DNA of 64,000 nt from the IMG/VR virus record IMGVR_UViG_3300042562_001017, positions 1 through 64,000 of that record; one strand, given 5' to 3'. Of this stretch, positions 1 through 7,666 are shown in pieces. The translations under genes were made by a program, and so were the position numbers. The first letter of the stretch is position 1. Each line of letters opens with the position of its first letter. The DNA is from a virus. A model generated the notes under the pieces. That model was not told the DNA's origin. It worked only from the letters and a program-made list of their open reading frames with translations, and did not search any database.

Positions 1-229
1 CATATTCTACTGTATTATCTGATAAATACTGATAATCAGCTAAATCTCTATTAACTAAAATTCTACGAGCAGTTTTATTTTTAGGAAGTGTTCTATTTAA
101 ATCAATTTTTTCTAAATCAAAATTGCAAGAATTTATATCAAATAAAGGAATAATATTTAAACTTCTTACATCTATTTCTACTTCAGGAAGTAAATTATTA
201 AAATGTCTTGTATTTCTAAGAATTCTCAT
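1..229 (-). CDS. Partial hypothetical protein after the E1-like gene
   Basis: The reading frame opens with ATG at 229-227 and stays open to the window edge, giving 76 residues that begin MRILRNTRHF. Its start overlaps the TGA stop of the E1-like gene by ATGA, so it is probably translationally coupled and the fifth gene of the ubiquitin-like cassette. I do not recognise the product. The visible part is rich in Asn, Leu and Arg, with no transmembrane segment or metal-binding motif. Its position makes it a candidate target, adaptor or ligase partner of the conjugation system, but that is only inference from linkage. Confidence 0.6.
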   Translation of the reverse strand, partial: MRILRNTRHFNNLLPEVEIDVRSLNIIPLFDINSCNFDLEKIDLNRTLPKNKTARRILVNRDLADYQYLSDNTVEY

Positions 230-909
230 ATACTTTCAAACATCATTAACGGAAAATTATAAGTTGTTTTAAAAGATAAATTAACTGGTAAATCTGGATT
301 TAAAGTTGTACCTACATAATTACAAAATAATGCTGTCATTATACTTGCGATAGCCATACCACTAAAAGTAGTTGCTTTCATACTACAAGCAGCATCTTCA
401 ACTTCAGAATCATCAAATAAAGTTCTTTCGTATTCTTTTTCTTTTCCTTTTGTTACACAATAAACTTCTCCTGTGGTGAGTGCCATTCTTCCATCAATAA
501 AAAGTTCTCTATCATCTTCAGCTTTCCATTTATCAAAAGCTAATTTTCTTGCAGCCATATTGTCAAAACAAGAAAATACTATTGGACCAGTCAAACTTTT
601 ATCAGTATATTTTTCATTTAAAGAAATTATATTAGGTTTATCACATAATAAATTAACTAAACTATTAATACTATCAAGTTTTCTCATTCCAATATCAGTA
701 TTAGCATACATTTGACCAGCTAAATTTACTTCATCAATTAAATCATAATCGTATAAATGTAAATTACATTCTAGTCTAGCAAGATTAAGGGTCAGCCATG
801 AGCCGATACCCCCTAATCCTAATACTAATACTTCTACATTTGGTTTGTAAAAGTAAGCTTCTGAAAATCTTACTGTACTTTGTTTAATTGTTTTTATTCC
901 CATACCCAT
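226..909 (-). CDS. ThiF/MoeB/E1-like adenylating enzyme
   Basis: This 227-residue protein has the E1 nucleotide-binding core: GLGGIG at residues 31-36, acidic residues at 54-56 ending the second strand, Asn62 in the DEVNLAGQ segment, a basic pair at 76-77 and Asp116-Asn117. Such enzymes adenylate the C-terminal glycine of a ubiquitin-like protein and usually pass it to a cysteine. Cys175, in an EDAACS context, is the best candidate. The protein is short, with no separate catalytic-cysteine or ubiquitin-fold domain, as in bacterial and phage ThiF proteins. It overlaps the JAB gene by 16 nt. A second in-frame ATG lies two codons downstream. A sulfur-carrier role (ThiF or MoeB proper) is possible, but the JAB and E2-like neighbours favour conjugation. 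Confidence 0.85.
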   Translation of the reverse strand: MGMGIKTIKQSTVRFSEAYFYKPNVEVLVLGLGGIGSWLTLNLARLECNLHLYDYDLIDEVNLAGQMYANTDIGMRKLDSINSLVNLLCDKPNIISLNEKYTDKSLTGPIVFSCFDNMAARKLAFDKWKAEDDRELFIDGRMALTTGEVYCVTKGKEKEYERTLFDDSEVEDAACSMKATTFSGMAIASIMTALFCNYVGTTLNPDLPVNLSFKTTYNFPLMMFESI

Positions 910-2057
910 TTGTCCATCTCCTCTATAATTAATTTTGTTGTTGGATGATTTCTGAAACTACTTACTTTTAGAAAATTAATACAATCTATCCATATATCAT
1001 TTAGATTACTTGTATCATCGTAATCGTCAGAAGTAATTGAAAAGAAGTCAAATATATCATGTGCATTATTTATTCTAATTTCAATAAATTCTTTAACTTC
1101 TTTGTTGTTTTTAAATTTCCCTTTGTTTTTAGGAATTAGATTATCTAAATAACCATGTAAAGGAGAAGAATACTCTTGATTATAATTAAAATAAAAAGGC
1201 ATATCTTCTATAGTATAGTTAATATCAATTAATCTTTTAATAAAATTTACAGCTTGAGAATCCCAAGTTAATTTATCTTCAGTTCTTTCTTTGTTTTTTT
1301 CGTCAAATAATTTACCTTGTTTGTAATTATTTTGTTTATAATTTACATTATAACCATAAGTATCGTAATTATCATTCCATGTATTATTTAACGTAGAAAA
1401 AGTTTGTACTGGTTTAGCTGCAATTACTTTTTCATATTGTCTAACAAAGAAATCATCAATTAAATTAGAACTTTCAGCAAATATTTCCATTTCATAATAA
1501 AATGTAACTTGTTTATTTGGTGAACTTATCATTTGTTCTACTCCGTGTCTATCTTTAAATTTTATTGTCCTACCTTCAATTTCACCAATGAATGCAATTC
1601 TAGCGCAATATTCATTTTTGTTATTTACAATTAACGAAAGGTAGTAGTTATAATTAGGAGCATTATCTGTAAGTTCTTCATTGTCAGTTGCACTAAAGAA
1701 AACTGCCATGTTGTTATGTGAATGAATGTGACTCATTGACCATTCCATAAGTTCTGGTTTTTCCATCAAAGCTTCTGTAAAAGAAGGAGAAGAAAAATCA
1801 TATTCTGTATAACCTGAAGTGCCTTTATCTAATAGCAATATATATTCAGCTTTACATGTAAATTGTTCTGGATTTTGTAAATCACCTTCACTAGTATGAT
1901 ACAATACACCTGACCATTCTACTAATGGCATTTTAGAACATAAATATTTAATTTGGTCAATTACAGTTTGACTCAATATTAATTTACCTTTTTTCTTAGA
2001 GAACTCAGTCAATTCTGAATAAGGGTTTTTTTTCAAGGAAGTTATTTGATTTGTCAT
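894..2057 (-). CDS. JAMM/JAB-domain metallopeptidase with C-terminal extension
   Basis: The first ~165 of 387 residues form a JAB/Mov34-type zinc isopeptidase. Glu47 sits in VEWSG, and residues 110-125 hold the signature: His112 and His114, then seven residues, Ser122 and Asp125. These enzymes remove or mature ubiquitin-like modifiers. All metal and catalytic positions are kept, so activity is expected. The C-terminal ~220 residues match nothing I recognise; they are Asn/Tyr-rich and could bind the modifier or target. The start lies 53 nt inside the end of the E2-like gene in another frame, and the end overlaps the E1-like gene by 16 nt. This strongly suggests one co-translated unit. In the cassette it could trim the modifier tail, reverse conjugation, or both. 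Confidence 0.88.
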   Translation of the reverse strand: MTNQITSLKKNPYSELTEFSKKKGKLILSQTVIDQIKYLCSKMPLVEWSGVLYHTSEGDLQNPEQFTCKAEYILLLDKGTSGYTEYDFSSPSFTEALMEKPELMEWSMSHIHSHNNMAVFFSATDNEELTDNAPNYNYYLSLIVNNKNEYCARIAFIGEIEGRTIKFKDRHGVEQMISSPNKQVTFYYEMEIFAESSNLIDDFFVRQYEKVIAAKPVQTFSTLNNTWNDNYDTYGYNVNYKQNNYKQGKLFDEKNKERTEDKLTWDSQAVNFIKRLIDINYTIEDMPFYFNYNQEYSSPLHGYLDNLIPKNKGKFKNNKEVKEFIEIRINNAHDIFDFFSITSDDYDDTSNLNDIWIDCINFLKVSSFRNHPTTKLIIEEMDKWVWE

Positions 2058-3309
2058 TTATAATATTATTTATTTTGTCGATTAATTGACTTTTTATACT
2101 TTGATAATGAAGTCTATATACATCTAATTCTCCAGAAAAAATTGTTTCAGCTGAAGTTTTGTTTAAAGAATAGTCAATTGTAAGTGTACCAAGTGTTTTT
2201 CCGTTAAAAGTAAAAAAGTTACTTCCAACAATTTCTGTAGTATTACTAGTATTTTTATCACTTTTGTTTAGTTTATCTAAAGAAATATAATTTCTGTTAA
2301 TAGCATAAAAAGAATTAACTTCATCTAAAGAAGAATCACCTATATAAACTTTATTTCTATCTATATCTAAAATTAAATTATTAAATTTATTTGCCATTAA
2401 ACTTTTTATCATTTCTTCACGAAATACGGAATAAGGTACATTTTCAGTTGTATTATTAGAACGAATATCACTAATTTTAATATAAGGTCCGCCTTCTAAA
2501 GATTCCCAAGAAAGATAATTTTCTAAAGCTACACAATAACTTATAGCAAATTCTTCACTAGAAATTGGGATATTTCTATATTTACTTAGCAATCCTTCAC
2601 CTAAACAAGTATTTCTCCATTCATCAAATCCTCTTGAAAAATGAGAAAAGACATATGAAGAAGAATATTCTTCTTGAGATGCTTTAGTTCTTGTACCACT
2701 AACTAATGAAAAACAAGGATTTGAGTTACTATTTTCTAAAAATTTACTAAAATACTTAGCAAAATCACTTAAATATTTTTGTCTAAATGTATTTTGATAA
2801 GATATATCAACTTTTAAATATACATCATAAATAGTATGTTGTCTTCCTGAACTATTTTGAACATGCTTTATTGGAAAATATACTATAAAAAAGCCATCTT
2901 GTATATCTACTCTATCTCCAAAAAAGTCTTTAATTACTTTTTTCCAATCAAAACTATCTTCAGTTTTATTTTCTGAATGTCTATTAAAAAATTCTTCATC
3001 AGTAAGATGTTCTTTTCCTGTTAATTTATTATAAGAGTTTAATGTAAAATCATCTAAAAAACCTCTACTAACATTATTGTGATATTCTTCAGATTGACTA
3101 TAACAATCAGGATTATAATCTATTTCAGGAATTTCATCTTCTATAACTATAACATCTTTTTTATCAATTGACCAGTGAGATATAGTTATATCATCAATAA
3201 TGTTATAATAATTATCAACTAATTCAAATTTTTCAAATATTCTATATATTACAGTTGCAGATGCACCTTGAGAGTTTTTTCCTGTAACTCCAGTTACTAA
3301 TATTTTCAT
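2005..3309 (-). CDS. E2-like (UBC-type) protein of the ubiquitin-like cassette
   Basis: This 434-residue protein is assigned mainly by a short motif and its neighbours. His223 lies in a YVFSHF segment and Cys235 in NTCLGEG. An upstream His and a Cys-Leu-Gly resemble the active-site region of E2 conjugating enzymes, where the Cys carries the modifier as a thioester. Strand-rich sequence before it (about residues 135-215) fits a UBC-like or RWD-like core. The N-terminal ~130 and C-terminal ~170 residues are not recognised. It is the first gene after the terminator that follows the modifier gene. PRTRC protein B-like and bacterial E2-like proteins occupy similar positions in known ThiF/JAB cassettes. 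A structure prediction would settle the fold. Confidence 0.6.
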   Translation of the reverse strand: MKILVTGVTGKNSQGASATVIYRIFEKFELVDNYYNIIDDITISHWSIDKKDVIVIEDEIPEIDYNPDCYSQSEEYHNNVSRGFLDDFTLNSYNKLTGKEHLTDEEFFNRHSENKTEDSFDWKKVIKDFFGDRVDIQDGFFIVYFPIKHVQNSSGRQHTIYDVYLKVDISYQNTFRQKYLSDFAKYFSKFLENSNSNPCFSLVSGTRTKASQEEYSSSYVFSHFSRGFDEWRNTCLGEGLLSKYRNIPISSEEFAISYCVALENYLSWESLEGGPYIKISDIRSNNTTENVPYSVFREEMIKSLMANKFNNLILDIDRNKVYIGDSSLDEVNSFYAINRNYISLDKLNKSDKNTSNTTEIVGSNFFTFNGKTLGTLTIDYSLNKTSAETIFSGELDVYRLHYQSIKSQLIDKINNIINDKSNNFLEKKPLFRID

Positions 3310-3330
3310 TTTTTTAATTTAAAAATAAAA

Positions 3331-3361
3331 AAACTCTCTTGTTGTATTAACAAGAGAGTTT
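3331..3361 (-). terminator. Intrinsic terminator between modifier and E2/JAB/E1 genes
   Basis: A perfect 13-bp inverted repeat (arms 3331-3343 and 3349-3361, loop GTATT) is followed on the minus strand by a run of seven or more T. It lies directly after the ubiquitin-like gene and before the E2-like gene. It should therefore end a fraction of transcripts, leaving more modifier mRNA than enzyme mRNA. Read-through or a promoter hidden in the short gap would be needed to express the enzymes. Confidence 0.85.
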
Positions 3362-3370
3362 TAAATAAAA

Positions 3371-3775
3371 TTACAGACCTAATTCTCTTTTAATTTTAGC
3401 TGCTTCTGCTGCTAAACTTGAATCAGATGAACTAAGATGTGAAGTAGATGAATGTTCTCCATCTTCGATTTCGTTTAAGATGTCTTCAAAAGCTTCGTCA
3501 AATTTTTCTTTAAGACGAGCAATTACTGAAGCTACATCAATAGATTCAGAACCAGATTTAGTCTTAGCAGGAGTCAAAACTAATTTGAATTCACCTTCAG
3601 GAAGAATTGCTTCCATAGATACTAATTGATTTCTAGTTTCTACAATAGTAGCTACCATGTCTTCATTTAATAATGAAGGAATTTCTGCTCTAAGTTCTCC
3701 CCATGTTGAAGAAGTTGAAATTAAACTTTGCGATGTGTTTGTTTTTGTTGAAAAAACTACAATTTTTCTAGCCAT
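3371..3775 (-). CDS. Ubiquitin-like (beta-grasp) modifier with C-terminal tail
   Basis: Residues 1-75 of 134 look like a MoaD/ThiS/ubiquitin-type beta-grasp domain: an N-terminal strand (KIVVFST), a helix around 25-37, strands around 41-56 and 62-68, and a terminal TPAKTKSG. There is no diglycine; Gly75 is the best candidate for the C-terminus after processing. A charged, probably helical tail of ~59 residues follows, with a Ser/Thr/His-rich linker at about 108-120. The tail would have to be removed before E1 activation, and the JAB peptidase downstream could do it. The start overlaps the primase stop by 19 nt, so translation is coupled to replication genes. PRTRC protein C is a known comparable modifier-like partner. 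The fold call is inference. Confidence 0.62.
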   Translation of the reverse strand: MARKIVVFSTKTNTSQSLISTSSTWGELRAEIPSLLNEDMVATIVETRNQLVSMEAILPEGEFKLVLTPAKTKSGSESIDVASVIARLKEKFDEAFEDILNEIEDGEHSSTSHLSSSDSSLAAEAAKIKRELGL

Positions 3776-4725
3776 TTTGTTAAATTATTTTTTGTTTGAT
3801 TTATTCCATATGACCTTATATAGTCACTAATGTCTTTTTGATTTGATTCTATCGGAATAAATAAAGGAATCAAATTTGGATATTTATTAATTACAGCATC
3901 TGCTGCTATATACCCAGCTTCATCATTATCAAAATTAATTATTATTTGGTCATAATTATTTTGTAAATGAGGTAAATGGATTTCCCATTTAGATAAAGCT
4001 TCAGAATGTGGAGCAACTGATTCGTGCTCTAAAAAATCATAAACCATAACATCTTTTTTACTTTTTGTTATGATTAATAAATTACTCTCATATCTAAGTT
4101 GCTCTAGTCCTTGTAACATCGAGGAATTTATGTTGCTCACAAATCTGAATTCTTTTCTCTTATAATGATACATTTTCCATTTACCATCTTCTAAATATCC
4201 TAAACAAGGGTCGCTATTTCTATAACTATAAACTTGTTTACCATTAATCCAATACATTGCTACACTATAGACATTATGTCTTTTGCAAATATTTGCGGTT
4301 AGATGAAAAGATTTAAGATAATCAATATCTTGTTTAGTATAATTTTGAATTCTACAATCAATTAGTGTTCCTTCTTTAACTAATTTTGGTATATATACAT
4401 AATCTGATTTTACATAATCACTTCCTTTACCTAAAAAATCTTGATATACCATTTCTAGTACCTTCGGGTAAGATATATTATACATATCTTTAAGTATTGT
4501 AAAGCAATTATATACTTTTTTTCTAGCAAAATCAGTTAACCACCAATAACCAGATTGTTCAAAAAACTTACAACCTGCATTTACATCATGTCTTGATGGA
4601 TTTGTATATAAAGTTAATGAATCTGGAGTTAAATTTGTATAGTATTTCCAAATATCTTCTTGTGATATTTTACTTAATAAATAATTTGGAGTTAAATATT
4701 CAGGTTTATCGTTTATACTATACAT
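3757..4725 (-). CDS. DnaG-type primase with TOPRIM domain
   Basis: The protein has 322 residues. The N-terminal part (about 30-75) has the layout seen in phage TOPRIM primases after the zinc-binding region (SRHDVNAGCKF, then WWLTDFAR). The TOPRIM core includes LLIITKSKKDV at about 217-227 and FDNDEAG with Asp266 and Asp268. The usual first TOPRIM glutamate (EG..D) is replaced by the TKS.KD form, which is common in this phage family. It should make RNA primers for the phage replisome, next to the DnaB-type helicase and polymerase genes. It overlaps the modifier gene downstream. Confidence 0.8.
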   Translation of the reverse strand: MYSINDKPEYLTPNYLLSKISQEDIWKYYTNLTPDSLTLYTNPSRHDVNAGCKFFEQSGYWWLTDFARKKVYNCFTILKDMYNISYPKVLEMVYQDFLGKGSDYVKSDYVYIPKLVKEGTLIDCRIQNYTKQDIDYLKSFHLTANICKRHNVYSVAMYWINGKQVYSYRNSDPCLGYLEDGKWKMYHYKRKEFRFVSNINSSMLQGLEQLRYESNLLIITKSKKDVMVYDFLEHESVAPHSEALSKWEIHLPHLQNNYDQIIINFDNDEAGYIAADAVINKYPNLIPLFIPIESNQKDISDYIRSYGINQTKNNLTKWLEKL

Positions 4726-4749
4726 AATTTAAATCATTTTTTGTTTTTA

Positions 4750-5283
4750 CTAAAATGCTTCTGGAACAAAATTAGCTATTTCATCATTAGAAGTAGGAGC
4801 AGCTTTAGTTATTTTCTCAGTACTACTAATTTTTAAAGTACCAGCATCTTTAGCAATAAAACCTACGTATTTAGGAAAACCTAAATTACCTCTATCATCA
4901 AATAATAACTTGATTTCAAAAGTTTTACCGTTATAATTGTCAGCTGCAATACGAATGATTTCGTTAGCATATTCTTGAAAAGTAGAAACATTACCTACTA
5001 CAATACTATCTTCAGCTACAAACTTAGATAAAATATGCTTAATGCGCTTACTCATGTTAGCAACTTTACTTTCTGCTTTATCGTCAGAAGATTCTACAGG
5101 CCATTCTACGTGTCTAAATGTTTCACCTTTAGCACCTTTAAAATGAAAAGCTAAAACGTCTTTACCTGTTCCGTCTTTCTTTGCATTCTCGTAAGAGATT
5201 TTTTCGATGATTACTCCACTATGGATTCCACCGTCAAAACGATTGTTTTCGTCAATCGTTAGGTTTTTTGATATTTCGTACAT
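4750..5283 (-). CDS. Hypothetical replication protein, possible ssDNA-binding protein
   Basis: I do not recognise a specific family in this 177-residue protein. It is strand-rich, with alternating basic and aromatic residues (VLAFHFKGAKGETFRHVEW) and an acidic-aromatic C-terminus ending NFVPEAF, similar in style to the protein-interaction tip of single-strand-binding proteins. It lies between the primase gene and the RecT-like gene in the replication operon. A role coating ssDNA or supporting annealing is plausible but inferred only from context. No catalytic motif is visible. Confidence 0.5.
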   Translation of the reverse strand: MYEISKNLTIDENNRFDGGIHSGVIIEKISYENAKKDGTGKDVLAFHFKGAKGETFRHVEWPVESSDDKAESKVANMSKRIKHILSKFVAEDSIVVGNVSTFQEYANEIIRIAADNYNGKTFEIKLLFDDRGNLGFPKYVGFIAKDAGTLKISSTEKITKAAPTSNDEIANFVPEAF

Positions 5284-5290
5284 ATATTAA

Positions 5291-5560
5291 TTAATTTACG
5301 TGTGATTCTGATTCAACATTTTGAGAAAAAGCTTCTGTAAAAGGAGTCATCTCAACTGCTTCATTTACTACATCATTTACAATTGTATCATCTACAATAG
5401 TATAAGTAGCATGTTGTTTTCTACTAATTTTTAAACCAAAAGTTGTCATAATCTTTTTGATTTCTGTTTCTGGCAACTCATACTTAGCTGCTAACTCTTT
5501 GCGAGTCATTTTTGTTTCTGTAACGTCTGTTACAAATTGTGATTTAATAATCTGCTTCAT
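5291..5560 (-). CDS. Small helix-turn-helix-like protein
   Basis: Residues 18-47 of 89 (TRKELAAKYELPETEIKKIM and onward) have the spacing of a helix-turn-helix: a short helix, a turn after the Leu-Pro, and a second helix followed by FGLKISR. The C-terminal half is acidic and Val/Thr-rich. It sits between the RecT-like gene and the possible ssDNA-binding gene, 7 nt from each, so it is co-transcribed with replication genes. It could be a DNA-binding accessory or regulator. Confidence 0.55.
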   Translation of the reverse strand: MKQIIKSQFVTDVTETKMTRKELAAKYELPETEIKKIMTTFGLKISRKQHATYTIVDDTIVNDVVNEAVEMTPFTEAFSQNVESESHVN

Positions 5561-5566
5561 CTTTTT

Positions 5567-6169
5567 TTAATTAATAATTTTTACATCTCCGTCTTCAGTA
5601 ATGCTTACATTACTTGCATTTGTTACATCTACCATTTCTTCAACAGTATATAGACCTAGTAACATGTCTGGTGCGATACGATTTGCACCTAAAGATAAAC
5701 AACGAGCGTAAAGCATTTGCTTAGGCATCTTAACCCAATTGTCTTTAGTAGTCCAGCCTGCTTTAACAGCATCAGACCAATAAAAATTTGTAGTTTCTGT
5801 AACGTTTCCTCTGTAAAATTCAATGGTAGTTACTCTATCTTTTATTTCTACTCCATTACTATCAACTCCTCTTACTACAAGTTCGCCATCTTTTATTGTT
5901 TTTATAGATATACCATTTCTCCACATCAAAGCACCTAATGCTTTAGATGAAAGAGCTAATCTACCTTGAATAGAATAAATTTGATGAAAAGCTTGCATAG
6001 GCTTCATTCCTAAATCTTTACCGTATTGAGCGATAGCAAATGCTTGCTCAATTGTTTTGATGTTAGAAGGAAGTACCTTTGAGTCAATAAGTAATTGTAA
6101 TTGTTCCATTTCGTTAGCAGGAACTGGCTTTGTGATTTGTTGTTCTTGAACAACTATTGCATCTGTCAT
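5567..6169 (-). CDS. RecT-like single-strand annealing protein
   Basis: The 200-residue protein matches the pattern of phage RecT-type recombinases. A helix with AIAQYGKDLGMKPMQAFHQIY is followed by a short hairpin (IQGRLALSSKALGALM), a WRNG turn, and near the end LGANRIAPDMLLGLYTVEEM. Such proteins anneal complementary ssDNA during phage recombination and replication. It is shorter than typical RecT because it lacks long N- and C-terminal extensions. The gene overlaps the DnaB-type helicase by 4 nt and is in the replication operon. No exonuclease partner was seen in the window. Confidence 0.7.
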   Translation of the reverse strand: MTDAIVVQEQQITKPVPANEMEQLQLLIDSKVLPSNIKTIEQAFAIAQYGKDLGMKPMQAFHQIYSIQGRLALSSKALGALMWRNGISIKTIKDGELVVRGVDSNGVEIKDRVTTIEFYRGNVTETTNFYWSDAVKAGWTTKDNWVKMPKQMLYARCLSLGANRIAPDMLLGLYTVEEMVDVTNASNVSITEDGDVKIIN

Positions 6170-7101
6170 AAATTGAAATTGATTTGTCCTTGTTGTGGAG
6201 GGCTATCATATATTCTATTAATCGCTAAATTATGATACATAGCAATCTCACACAATGAACCCTCGCGTTGTTTTAAAATTTGAGTAATCAGTAGGTTTTT
6301 GGTATCTAGACTTTTATATCTACTAAGGTCATACATTTCTGGTCTATGTAATGCTAATACAAGTGTTGCACATTGCATAACACTATCTGCACCGAAAATA
6401 TAACTAGGAAGAATACCAGTAGTACCGACATCACTTCTCTCACCATCTTCTATTTTTCTATTAAGTTGAGACAAGAATACGTTAATACATTCTAGTTTGT
6501 TTTTTAATCTTACTCCAGCAAGCATTAGATTAGTAATTTTTTCTTCTTCTGTTTTCTCATTAGATGATGTTATCAAACGAGTATGGTCTACTATATTAAC
6601 TATAGTTCTGTTTGGAAATAATAACGCTACTTCTTCTACTTTGCTTTCCCATTGTTTATGATTAACAGGAATATCTCTAAAATACATAGGTATTTTTCTC
6701 AATTCGTTACCTGCATTAACAAGTGAAGCATAAGTATCTTCTTCTAAAGGTGTATTAGCAGATAACATTTCTTTTACAGGTAACATAGCTTCGGCAGAAT
6801 ACATACGAGCTACATTTTGCCATGATTTCATCTCGAATGACCAATAAATAAAAATTAAATCAGGATATTTAACCGCTAAATCTTTTACAAGTATAGTAAC
6901 AAAAGCACTTTTACCAACACCGCTTCTCGCTGGTATTACTAATTGGTCGCCTTTATATATACCAGTAATTTTATCATTTAGTTTTTCACTAAATGTTTTA
7001 AATGGTCTTAATTCTCCTGATTTATACTTACGTATAATTTCATTTGTTTCGTCTACAATTTCCGATATATGTTGTAGACCACTAATAGATAGATTTTCCA
7101 A
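6166..7101 (-). CDS. DnaB-type replicative helicase (RecA-fold domain only)
   Basis: Residues 45-65 of 311 carry the DnaB-style Walker A region with the P-loop around 58-65 (SGVGKS). A Walker-B-type strand appears as VNIVDHTRL, followed by an FLSQLNRKIE segment typical of DnaB motif H3 and a later arginine-containing LKQREG segment. The N-terminal primase-interaction domain of bacterial DnaB is absent, as in many phage helicases. It should unwind DNA at the phage fork with the primase and polymerase. It overlaps the genes on both sides. Confidence 0.82.
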   Translation of the reverse strand: MENLSISGLQHISEIVDETNEIIRKYKSGELRPFKTFSEKLNDKITGIYKGDQLVIPARSGVGKSAFVTILVKDLAVKYPDLIFIYWSFEMKSWQNVARMYSAEAMLPVKEMLSANTPLEEDTYASLVNAGNELRKIPMYFRDIPVNHKQWESKVEEVALLFPNRTIVNIVDHTRLITSSNEKTEEEKITNLMLAGVRLKNKLECINVFLSQLNRKIEDGERSDVGTTGILPSYIFGADSVMQCATLVLALHRPEMYDLSRYKSLDTKNLLITQILKQREGSLCEIAMYHNLAINRIYDSPPQQGQINFNL

Positions 7102-7666
7102 AGCCTTCTCCTTCCGATTCTTTAATTTTCTTTATACTTTCCCAAACTTTACCTGCTATAAATTTATCTATTTTCATATTTAGCAAGTTCTTTTCAATGG
7201 CGTAAGTTAATATTTCTTTAACTTCTTCATGCTTATTTTGAGAATTTTTAATAGCTTTTACATAATTTTTCTCTAATTCGTCTAAATCTACAGTTTTTGT
7301 AAAAACTTTTGTTGAATTTACCATAAAAGTATCTGGATATAATTCTAATAATTCTTCAAAAGCTTCGCCACCATTAATAAACATCAAATCTACAAATTTA
7401 CTTGTAAGTATAAGTTGGTCAAAAGCATAATCTTGAGATAAAGATATAACATATTCTTTGTTTACTAAATCCTTTATCTCATCTTTAGTCCAACCAGCTC
7501 CCTCATGACTCCATTTATATATTAAACCTCCTTTGGTAAATTTCAAAGATGCACCTTGTTTTACCATTTTCTCAGTATATAATAAATAAAGCAGAAGGAA
7601 TTGATTGGTCTTTAACTTGTTTTTACATAGAAATTCTACGTAATTTTCTGGGTTATCTAACAGCAT
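7082..7666 (-). CDS. Hypothetical protein upstream of DnaB, possible helicase loader
   Basis: The 194-residue protein starts with a helical segment (about 10-70) resembling a winged-helix arrangement, and ends with a helical C-terminus rich in Lys and Glu. It overlaps the helicase gene by 20 nt. Small two-domain proteins directly before a replicative helicase are often loaders or initiators, so a loader role is a reasonable guess. No ATPase motif is present and I recognise no family. Confidence 0.55.
   Translation of the reverse strand: MLLDNPENYVEFLCKNKLKTNQFLLLYLLYTEKMVKQGASLKFTKGGLIYKWSHEGAGWTKDEIKDLVNKEYVISLSQDYAFDQLILTSKFVDLMFINGGEAFEELLELYPDTFMVNSTKVFTKTVDLDELEKNYVKAIKNSQNKHEEVKEILTYAIEKNLLNMKIDKFIAGKVWESIKKIKESEGEGFGKSIY

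Follow-up and report, generated by a model that had tools for sequence, protein, structure and literature searches.

Introduction

Operons that join a ubiquitin-like (Ubl) protein to an E1-like enzyme, an E2-like enzyme and a JAB protease were predicted in bacteria by Iyer et al. 2006 (PMC1779556), who also described the phage proteins TAPI and TAPK; the accessible part of that paper makes no mention of the phage set analyzed here. The paper also sets out PRTRC-type operons of bacterial mobile elements (type 6d), which encode a ThiF protein, a JAB protein, an E2-like protein B corresponding to Prok-E2_D, and a Ubl protein C. Bacterial ubiquitin-like systems studied so far are mostly antiphage, while the locus analyzed here belongs to a phage group, common in the human gut, that carries and keeps such machinery itself. 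It lies in the first 64,000 nucleotides of IMG/VR virus record IMGVR_UViG_3300042562_001017 (this whole stretch is hereafter called the window), where four consecutive genes encode a ubiquitin-like modifier, a protein in the E2 position (the E2-slot protein), a JAMM/JAB protease and a ThiF/E1-like adenylating enzyme. The evidence inclines us, modestly, to read this cassette as a phage-encoded ubiquitin-like maturation and conjugation pathway.

Results

A conserved four-gene cassette

The four genes overlap or are closely spaced, and all lie on the minus strand. The cassette and its main internal features are as follows:

3371..3775, minus strand: ubiquitin-like modifier precursor, 134 amino acids (aa); beta-grasp domain at residues 1-70, helical tail at 81-131
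3551..3559, minus strand: Lys73-Ser74-Gly75 of the modifier, predicted mature C-terminus and cleavage point
3330..3362, minus strand: terminator-like hairpin (14 pairs plus a T-run) in the gap between the modifier and E2-slot genes
2005..3309, minus strand: E2-slot protein, 434 aa, fold unmatched, with invariant His223 and Cys235
2605..2643, minus strand: His223 to Cys235 stretch of the E2-slot protein (F-S-H-x11-C-L-G)
894..2057, minus strand: JAMM/JAB protease with a C-terminal extension, 387 aa
226..909, minus strand: ThiF/E1-like adenylating enzyme, 227 aa, with GLGGIG, Lys77, Asp116 and Cys175

A preliminary description of this DNA had placed four open reading frames (ORFs) at 226-3775 and had named residues in three of them: G31-L-G-G-I-G36 and Cys175 (ThiF), Glu47, His112, His114 and Asp125 (the JAB protein), and His223 with Cys235-Leu-Gly (the 434-aa protein); positions and residues all proved correct. 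It had also proposed that crAss-like genomes be searched for the same gene order. When we searched the related loci again with family profiles, modifier, E2-slot protein, JAB and ThiF were present in this order in 92/92 loci, a count confined to those with enough sequence to judge and drawn from Steigviridae crAss-like phages (such as crAss001), Flavobacterium FpV phages and environmental contigs. In one of the 92 (L088), the modifier match is weak (E=0.07). Judged from the sequences, the conservation of residues in the cassette proteins, counted over 69-74 non-redundant relatives per family, is more than chance.

The modifier and its predicted processing

An AlphaFold2 model of the modifier, built from 60 sequences, has beta-grasp order and a predicted local distance difference test score (pLDDT) of about 95-97 over most of residues 1-70; beyond residue 70 the model runs into a flexible linker and then tail helices. 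In Foldseek, the best 50 matches in the Protein Data Bank (PDB) were all ubiquitin-superfold proteins (probability 0.99-1.00), including ubiquitin, UBX, SUMO, ISG15, NEDD8 and TtuB. The beta-grasp fold, at first only supposed, is thus borne out by model and structure search, and at the level of a predicted structure the modifier assignment is solid.

Gly75 is the sole residue common to all modifiers (69/69), and it sits in a K-S-G motif directly after the last strand. Nine relatives have a modifier gene that ends with the single residue following this glycine (F, K, K, K, I, K, K, E and N), and other modifiers continue for 3-5 residues or carry tails of 20 to 250 residues. The simplest reading of an invariant Gly75 with stops one residue later is a precursor that needs trimming to leave -KSG at its end, as would a pro-modifier processed by the JAMM protease, with predicted cleavage after Gly75; the C-terminal glycine characteristic of ubiquitin-like modifiers would here be Gly75, exposed by processing.

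Loci with a short modifier (L032, L034, L036, L038, L040, L041, L043 and L049) carry a small ORF of ~40-60 aa between the modifier and E2-slot genes, and the terminator-like hairpin lies 3′ of this ORF. We considered whether these small ORFs are homologues of the long-modifier tails, and the comparison was no more than suggestive. Matches of the modifier tails to SAP/HeH DNA-binding domains were not significant. Steigviridae tails (L001, L010, L012, L013, L014 and L016) share a C-terminal motif like SDDEIDDMF, and tails of the window's type end like AAEAAKIKRELGL. These recurring ends are possibly docking peptides; a C-terminal motif common to the modifier tail and a nearby protein resembling single-stranded DNA-binding protein (SSB) was not consistent.

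The JAMM protease and the ThiF enzyme

The metal-site signature of JAMM/JAB proteases (Glu, His-x-His, Ser, Asp) is intact, with Glu47, His112, His114, Ser122 and Asp125 kept in 69/69 sequences. Prok-JAB matches 32/52 members of the family, and the family profile aligns in register with CSN5 and JAMM1 at the metal motif, with weak E-values. For ThiF, the window's protein passes the PF00899 profile (E=1.7e-19, 70.4 bits vs a cut-off of 28.1), and the family profile matches MccB, UBA5, Uba1, ThiF, MoeB and Cap2 in the PDB and the PRTRC ThiF with an hhalign probability of 98.8%. The GxGGIG motif, Lys77 and Asp116 are invariant among relatives, and Cys175 is conserved in 99% of them. Both assignments can be called solid as sequence-based predictions, and the E1-like enzyme and JAMM protease of the preliminary description stand: the first through PF00899 and the matches to UBA5, MccB, MoeB and ThiF, the second through its fully kept ligands and the Prok-JAB matches.

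A candidate E2 in the 434-aa protein

His223, Cys235 and Gly237 are present in 74/74 E2-slot sequences, and Glu269-Ser270-x-x-Gly273-x-Pro275 is also nearly fixed. The spacing from His to Cys ranges from 8 to 31 residues among relatives, and the motif around the histidine reads HSH in most and HPH in four. The classical E2 active-site signature is HPNxxxxGxxCL. One relative (L031) has HPHSSREGVMCLG, the exact spacing of the E2 active site in the ubiquitin-conjugating (UBC) fold; this type of signature is absent from all other ORFs of the loci except in the near-twin L033, and the stretch resembles the active site of bacterial Prok-E2_B proteins (PHVERDGVLCL). The invariant His and Cys, taken together with the HPH...CLG relatives, give the protein a catalytic, E2-like appearance, and an E2 role, as a candidate, is likely.

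Several observations weigh against this assignment and against a conjugation pathway. The window's own E2-slot protein has F-S-H, not H-S-H, and the ThiF family has Gly65 in place of the Arg of the NxxRQ motif (the ATP-site residues of MoeB are Gly41, Arg73, Lys86 and Asp130; PMC12355090). No Pfam E2 family matched any of 64 E2-slot members. Comparison with PRTRC-B, which the preliminary description had proposed, gave no significant match, and the same was true of Prok-E2_B in hhalign and of profile searches of the PDB. A model of the protein (AlphaFold2) reaches a pLDDT above 90 in its core and 66 overall, and no UBC-type match was among the matches listed by Foldseek in the PDB and the viral fold library BFVD. 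However, outside its core this model is of low quality, and even members of its own family align poorly with it (template modeling score 0.28-0.39). In addition, PRTRC-B and Prok-E2_B are two accepted E2 families, and in a control the same profile method missed the link between them; the negative UBC result is therefore weak. Of the interpretation first given to the locus, the modifier, E1-like enzyme and JAMM protease hold as one unit, and a UBC fold for the 434-aa protein is neither established nor refuted. Our best reading is that this protein is a highly diverged or new E2-type enzyme.

The missing UBC match would suit an alternative in which ThiF alone activates the tag and transfers it, or passes it to one dedicated partner, and the 434-aa protein is a substrate or an unrelated Cys enzyme. 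Such chemistry would be closer to that of MccB or UBA4/Urm1 than to an E1-E2 relay, and among the PDB profile matches of ThiF, MccB, a peptide modifier that works without an E2, ranks first. We nevertheless consider it unlikely: the invariant His223 and Cys235 and the HPH...CLG variants look catalytic and E2-like.

Introns at conserved His motifs

Three group I introns score above Rfam thresholds, each at a conserved His motif:

L059:6696-7149: group I intron in the JAB gene
L072:5555-5814: group I intron in the JAB gene
L056:4225-4456: group I intron in the E2-slot gene

The JAB break falls at or adjoining the HSH codons in the first two and in four other interrupted genes (L007, L036, L077 and L084), and in L056 the intron splits the M-H|S-H stretch of the E2-slot gene. 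The HSH of the E2-slot gene is interrupted just as the JAMM motif is, which fits an active site. In L007, ThiF is broken at an N-L-x-G-Q stretch, and several other loci carry unclassified inserts in JAB and ThiF.

Genomic context and a fifth gene

Two genes adjoin the cassette:

3757..4725, minus strand: DNA primase gene, directly upstream, with a 19-base overlap with the modifier gene (phrog_12622, E=2.4e-30)
2..229, minus strand: start part (76 codons) of a fifth gene, interrupted by the contig start; the rest is at contig positions 80173-81084

The fifth gene, absent from the preliminary description, is a member of the cassette unit; it comes after ThiF, which it overlaps by 4 bases. It is split across both ends of the 81,085-base contig, with ~50 codons missing, so the 81-kb record is a nearly complete genome, circular or permuted. 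Upstream of the cassette are genes for primase, an SSB-like protein (a label that is a guess from position and size only), a RecT-like protein and a DnaB-type helicase, and the portal, terminase and major head proteins of the contig match crAss-like families. The earlier placement of the set inside a replication operon agrees with this neighborhood, and the evidence supports a cassette that forms a single unit in a block of replication genes of a crAss-like phage.

The neighborhood bears on the main chemical rival, a sulfur-carrier pathway in which JAMM trims the modifier, ThiF converts the terminal glycine to a thiocarboxylate, and the 434-aa protein draws on this sulfur to modify a nucleotide, tRNA or DNA, much as in the thioquinolobactin or CysO-Mec systems, with no protein tagged. 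Modifier, JAMM and ThiF form the core of such systems too, JAB proteins with ThiS/MoaD-like proteins are described in Iyer et al. 2006 (PMC1779556), and the cassette sits among nucleotide-metabolism genes; its annotated neighbors are primase, helicase, uracil-DNA glycosylase, ribonucleotide reductase, dUTPase and unknowns. Yet among these annotated neighbors no rhodanese or other sulfurtransferase or biosynthetic enzyme is linked to the set, and the set has an extra invariant Cys/His protein. We regard a sulfur carrier as improbable here.

Hairpins and selection

Terminator-like hairpins of differing sequence occur at the junction of the modifier and E2-slot genes in 44/77 distinct loci, compared with 7/770 shuffled gaps and with 20/239 other co-directional gaps of the same loci. 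Placed here, such hairpins suggest, at the level of sequence, higher transcription of the modifier than of its enzymes and a tag in excess over them, which would suit a tag that is consumed.

Simple pairwise estimates of the ratio of nonsynonymous to synonymous substitution (dN/dS) among three close genomes separate the genes of this region. The E2-slot gene gave 0.88-1.09 (434 codons, no indel) and the fifth gene 0.77-1.18, whereas the SSB-like, primase, modifier, JAB and ThiF genes and one further neighbor gave 0.11-0.39; dS was 0.09-0.32 throughout the compared genes. Ratios near 1 suggest that the E2-slot and fifth proteins form the side that meets variable partners. Near-neutral evolution of the 434-aa protein would be unusual for a metabolic enzyme, a further point against the sulfur carrier. 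The fifth protein was found by position in 90/95 loci, in sequence groups without detectable relation to each other. We considered it as an E2, as PRTRC-F and as a member of any Pfam family, and none matched.

Two cassette genes with dN/dS of about 1 are also what an arms race would produce, and host CBASS (cyclic oligonucleotide-based antiphage signaling) turns these same classes of protein against phages (PMC10097602; PMC12355090). The phage proteins could then be decoys that mimic or block host Bil or CBASS-type conjugation, with no need for a working pathway of their own. A decoy, however, gives no reason for E1, JAMM and transfer-type motifs to stay jointly invariant in a set kept in all 92 loci, and the modifier, JAB and ThiF are clearly constrained. 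The PADLOC defense models returned just a generic E1 domain (E1-E2 models) at low scores, with no match past that domain. We give a decoy or counter-defense role little credence.

Distribution

By tblastn, 78 phage records contain ThiF. They comprise crAss-like phages of the Steigviridae (crAss001, DAC15, crAssBcn and several uncultured cr phages) and a small number of related crAss-like records, together with Flavobacterium FpV/Fpv phages and four jumbo phages of Xanthomonas and Erwinia. A search with the portal protein gave 150 records, so the cassette marks one branch and not every crAss-like phage. A pattern scan of IMG/VR found 223 relatives, 80 of which were retrieved. The same scan of 84,980 bacterial and archaeal genomes gave full-length matches only on two small contigs (L097 and L098), the remaining matches being short and to other E1-like proteins, and we found no plasmid relatives of the phage ThiF. 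Within the limits of these scans, the cassette is a phage property; the E2-slot alignment is too poorly conserved to scan for further loci. In the literature outside subscription papers and preprints we found no report of a ubiquitin-like pathway in crAss-like phages, and the accessible crAss-like genome papers make no mention of ubiquitin-like genes.

A second type of phage cassette was seen in Xanthomonas phage PhiXhv-15 (L015, 228 kb), where three genes lie in a row at 3715-7594: one for a 141-aa protein with ASGG at its end, one for an 892-aa protein containing IHPHM...HGSLCLGS, and one for a ThiF of 227 aa. The 892-aa protein and ThiF of this type are also found in Erwinia phage Ep032.

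Discussion

The gene set, its order and conservation, the hairpin, and the folds and motifs of the modifier, JAMM and ThiF steps come directly from computation, and on them we build a predicted pathway. The modifier would be synthesized in precursor form: Lys-Ser-Gly closes its beta-grasp domain, and either a single residue or a helical tail comes next, depending on the phage. JAMM would cleave after Gly75, exposing the tag's C-terminus, and may later strip the tag from targets. The small ThiF would adenylate the glycine with ATP and load the tag on Cys175; the 434-aa protein would receive it on Cys235, aided by His223, and pass it to target proteins, which we infer to be phage replication proteins or host proteins early in infection. 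Target specificity probably resides in the 434-aa protein and the fast-evolving fifth protein, and the hairpin after the modifier gene would keep the tag above enzyme level.

A bolder version of this proposal, which we put forward tentatively and at somewhat short of even chances, is that a branch of crAss-like phages and their Flavobacterium relatives has a complete pathway of its own with a new E2 class, that it tags phage replication or host proteins early, and that the fast-evolving E2 and fifth protein set its targets. If the pathway is real, phages use ubiquitin-style tagging for their own benefit, there may be a new class of E2, and a function could be given to crAss001 gp76-gp79, now labelled “thiamine biosynthesis protein,” “metalloprotease domain containing protein” and “hypothetical protein.” The phage group has isolates grown on Bacteroides, and crAss001 with Bacteroides intestinalis offers a laboratory pair for finding targets.

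Comparison with known systems

PRTRC operons are alike in carrying the same four protein classes in one operon, with a related ThiF (hhalign 98.8%), a Ubl protein C that ends in a lone glycine (GTKG), and a position near SSB or replication genes. They differ in that B and C have no detectable relation to the phage 434-aa protein and modifier (hhalign not significant), in their order of C-F-B-ThiF, and in PRTRC-E and -F, which have no homologue in the phage set. Host-side PRTRC loci of Bacteroidota genomes (L118-L128) encode a Ubl of ~72 aa, its gene ending GTKG, followed by a PRTRC-F-like protein, an E2-like protein and ThiF; no JAB was recognized in the examined stretches. TAPI/TAPK of lambdoid phages (PMC1779556) likewise combine a phage-borne Ubl bearing a glycine with a JAB protease, but are without an E1 or E2-slot protein and lie among tail genes, not replication genes.

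BilABCD and type II CBASS (Cap2/Cap3) resemble the cassette by protein class, with an E1-type protein, an E2-slot protein, a JAB and a tag or substrate, and Cap2 is among the PDB matches of the phage ThiF. The phage set, in contrast, is carried by a phage and not directed against one, its E1 and E2-slot proteins are separate, and PADLOC gives it only the generic E1 domain. The UFM1/UBA5 system shares a minimal E1, UBA5 being among the best PDB matches of the phage ThiF, and UFM1, as predicted for the phage modifier, has one C-terminal glycine covered by a short tail, which has to be cut off. The eukaryotic deconjugase is a Cys protease, whereas the one proposed for the phage is a JAMM protein, and no phage protein matches UFC1. 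In the thioquinolobactin (QbsC/D/E) and CysO-Mec systems, a Ubl precursor is trimmed by a JAMM protease and activated by a ThiF protein; the phage set differs from these in having no linked sulfurtransferase or biosynthetic gene and in having the extra invariant Cys/His protein.

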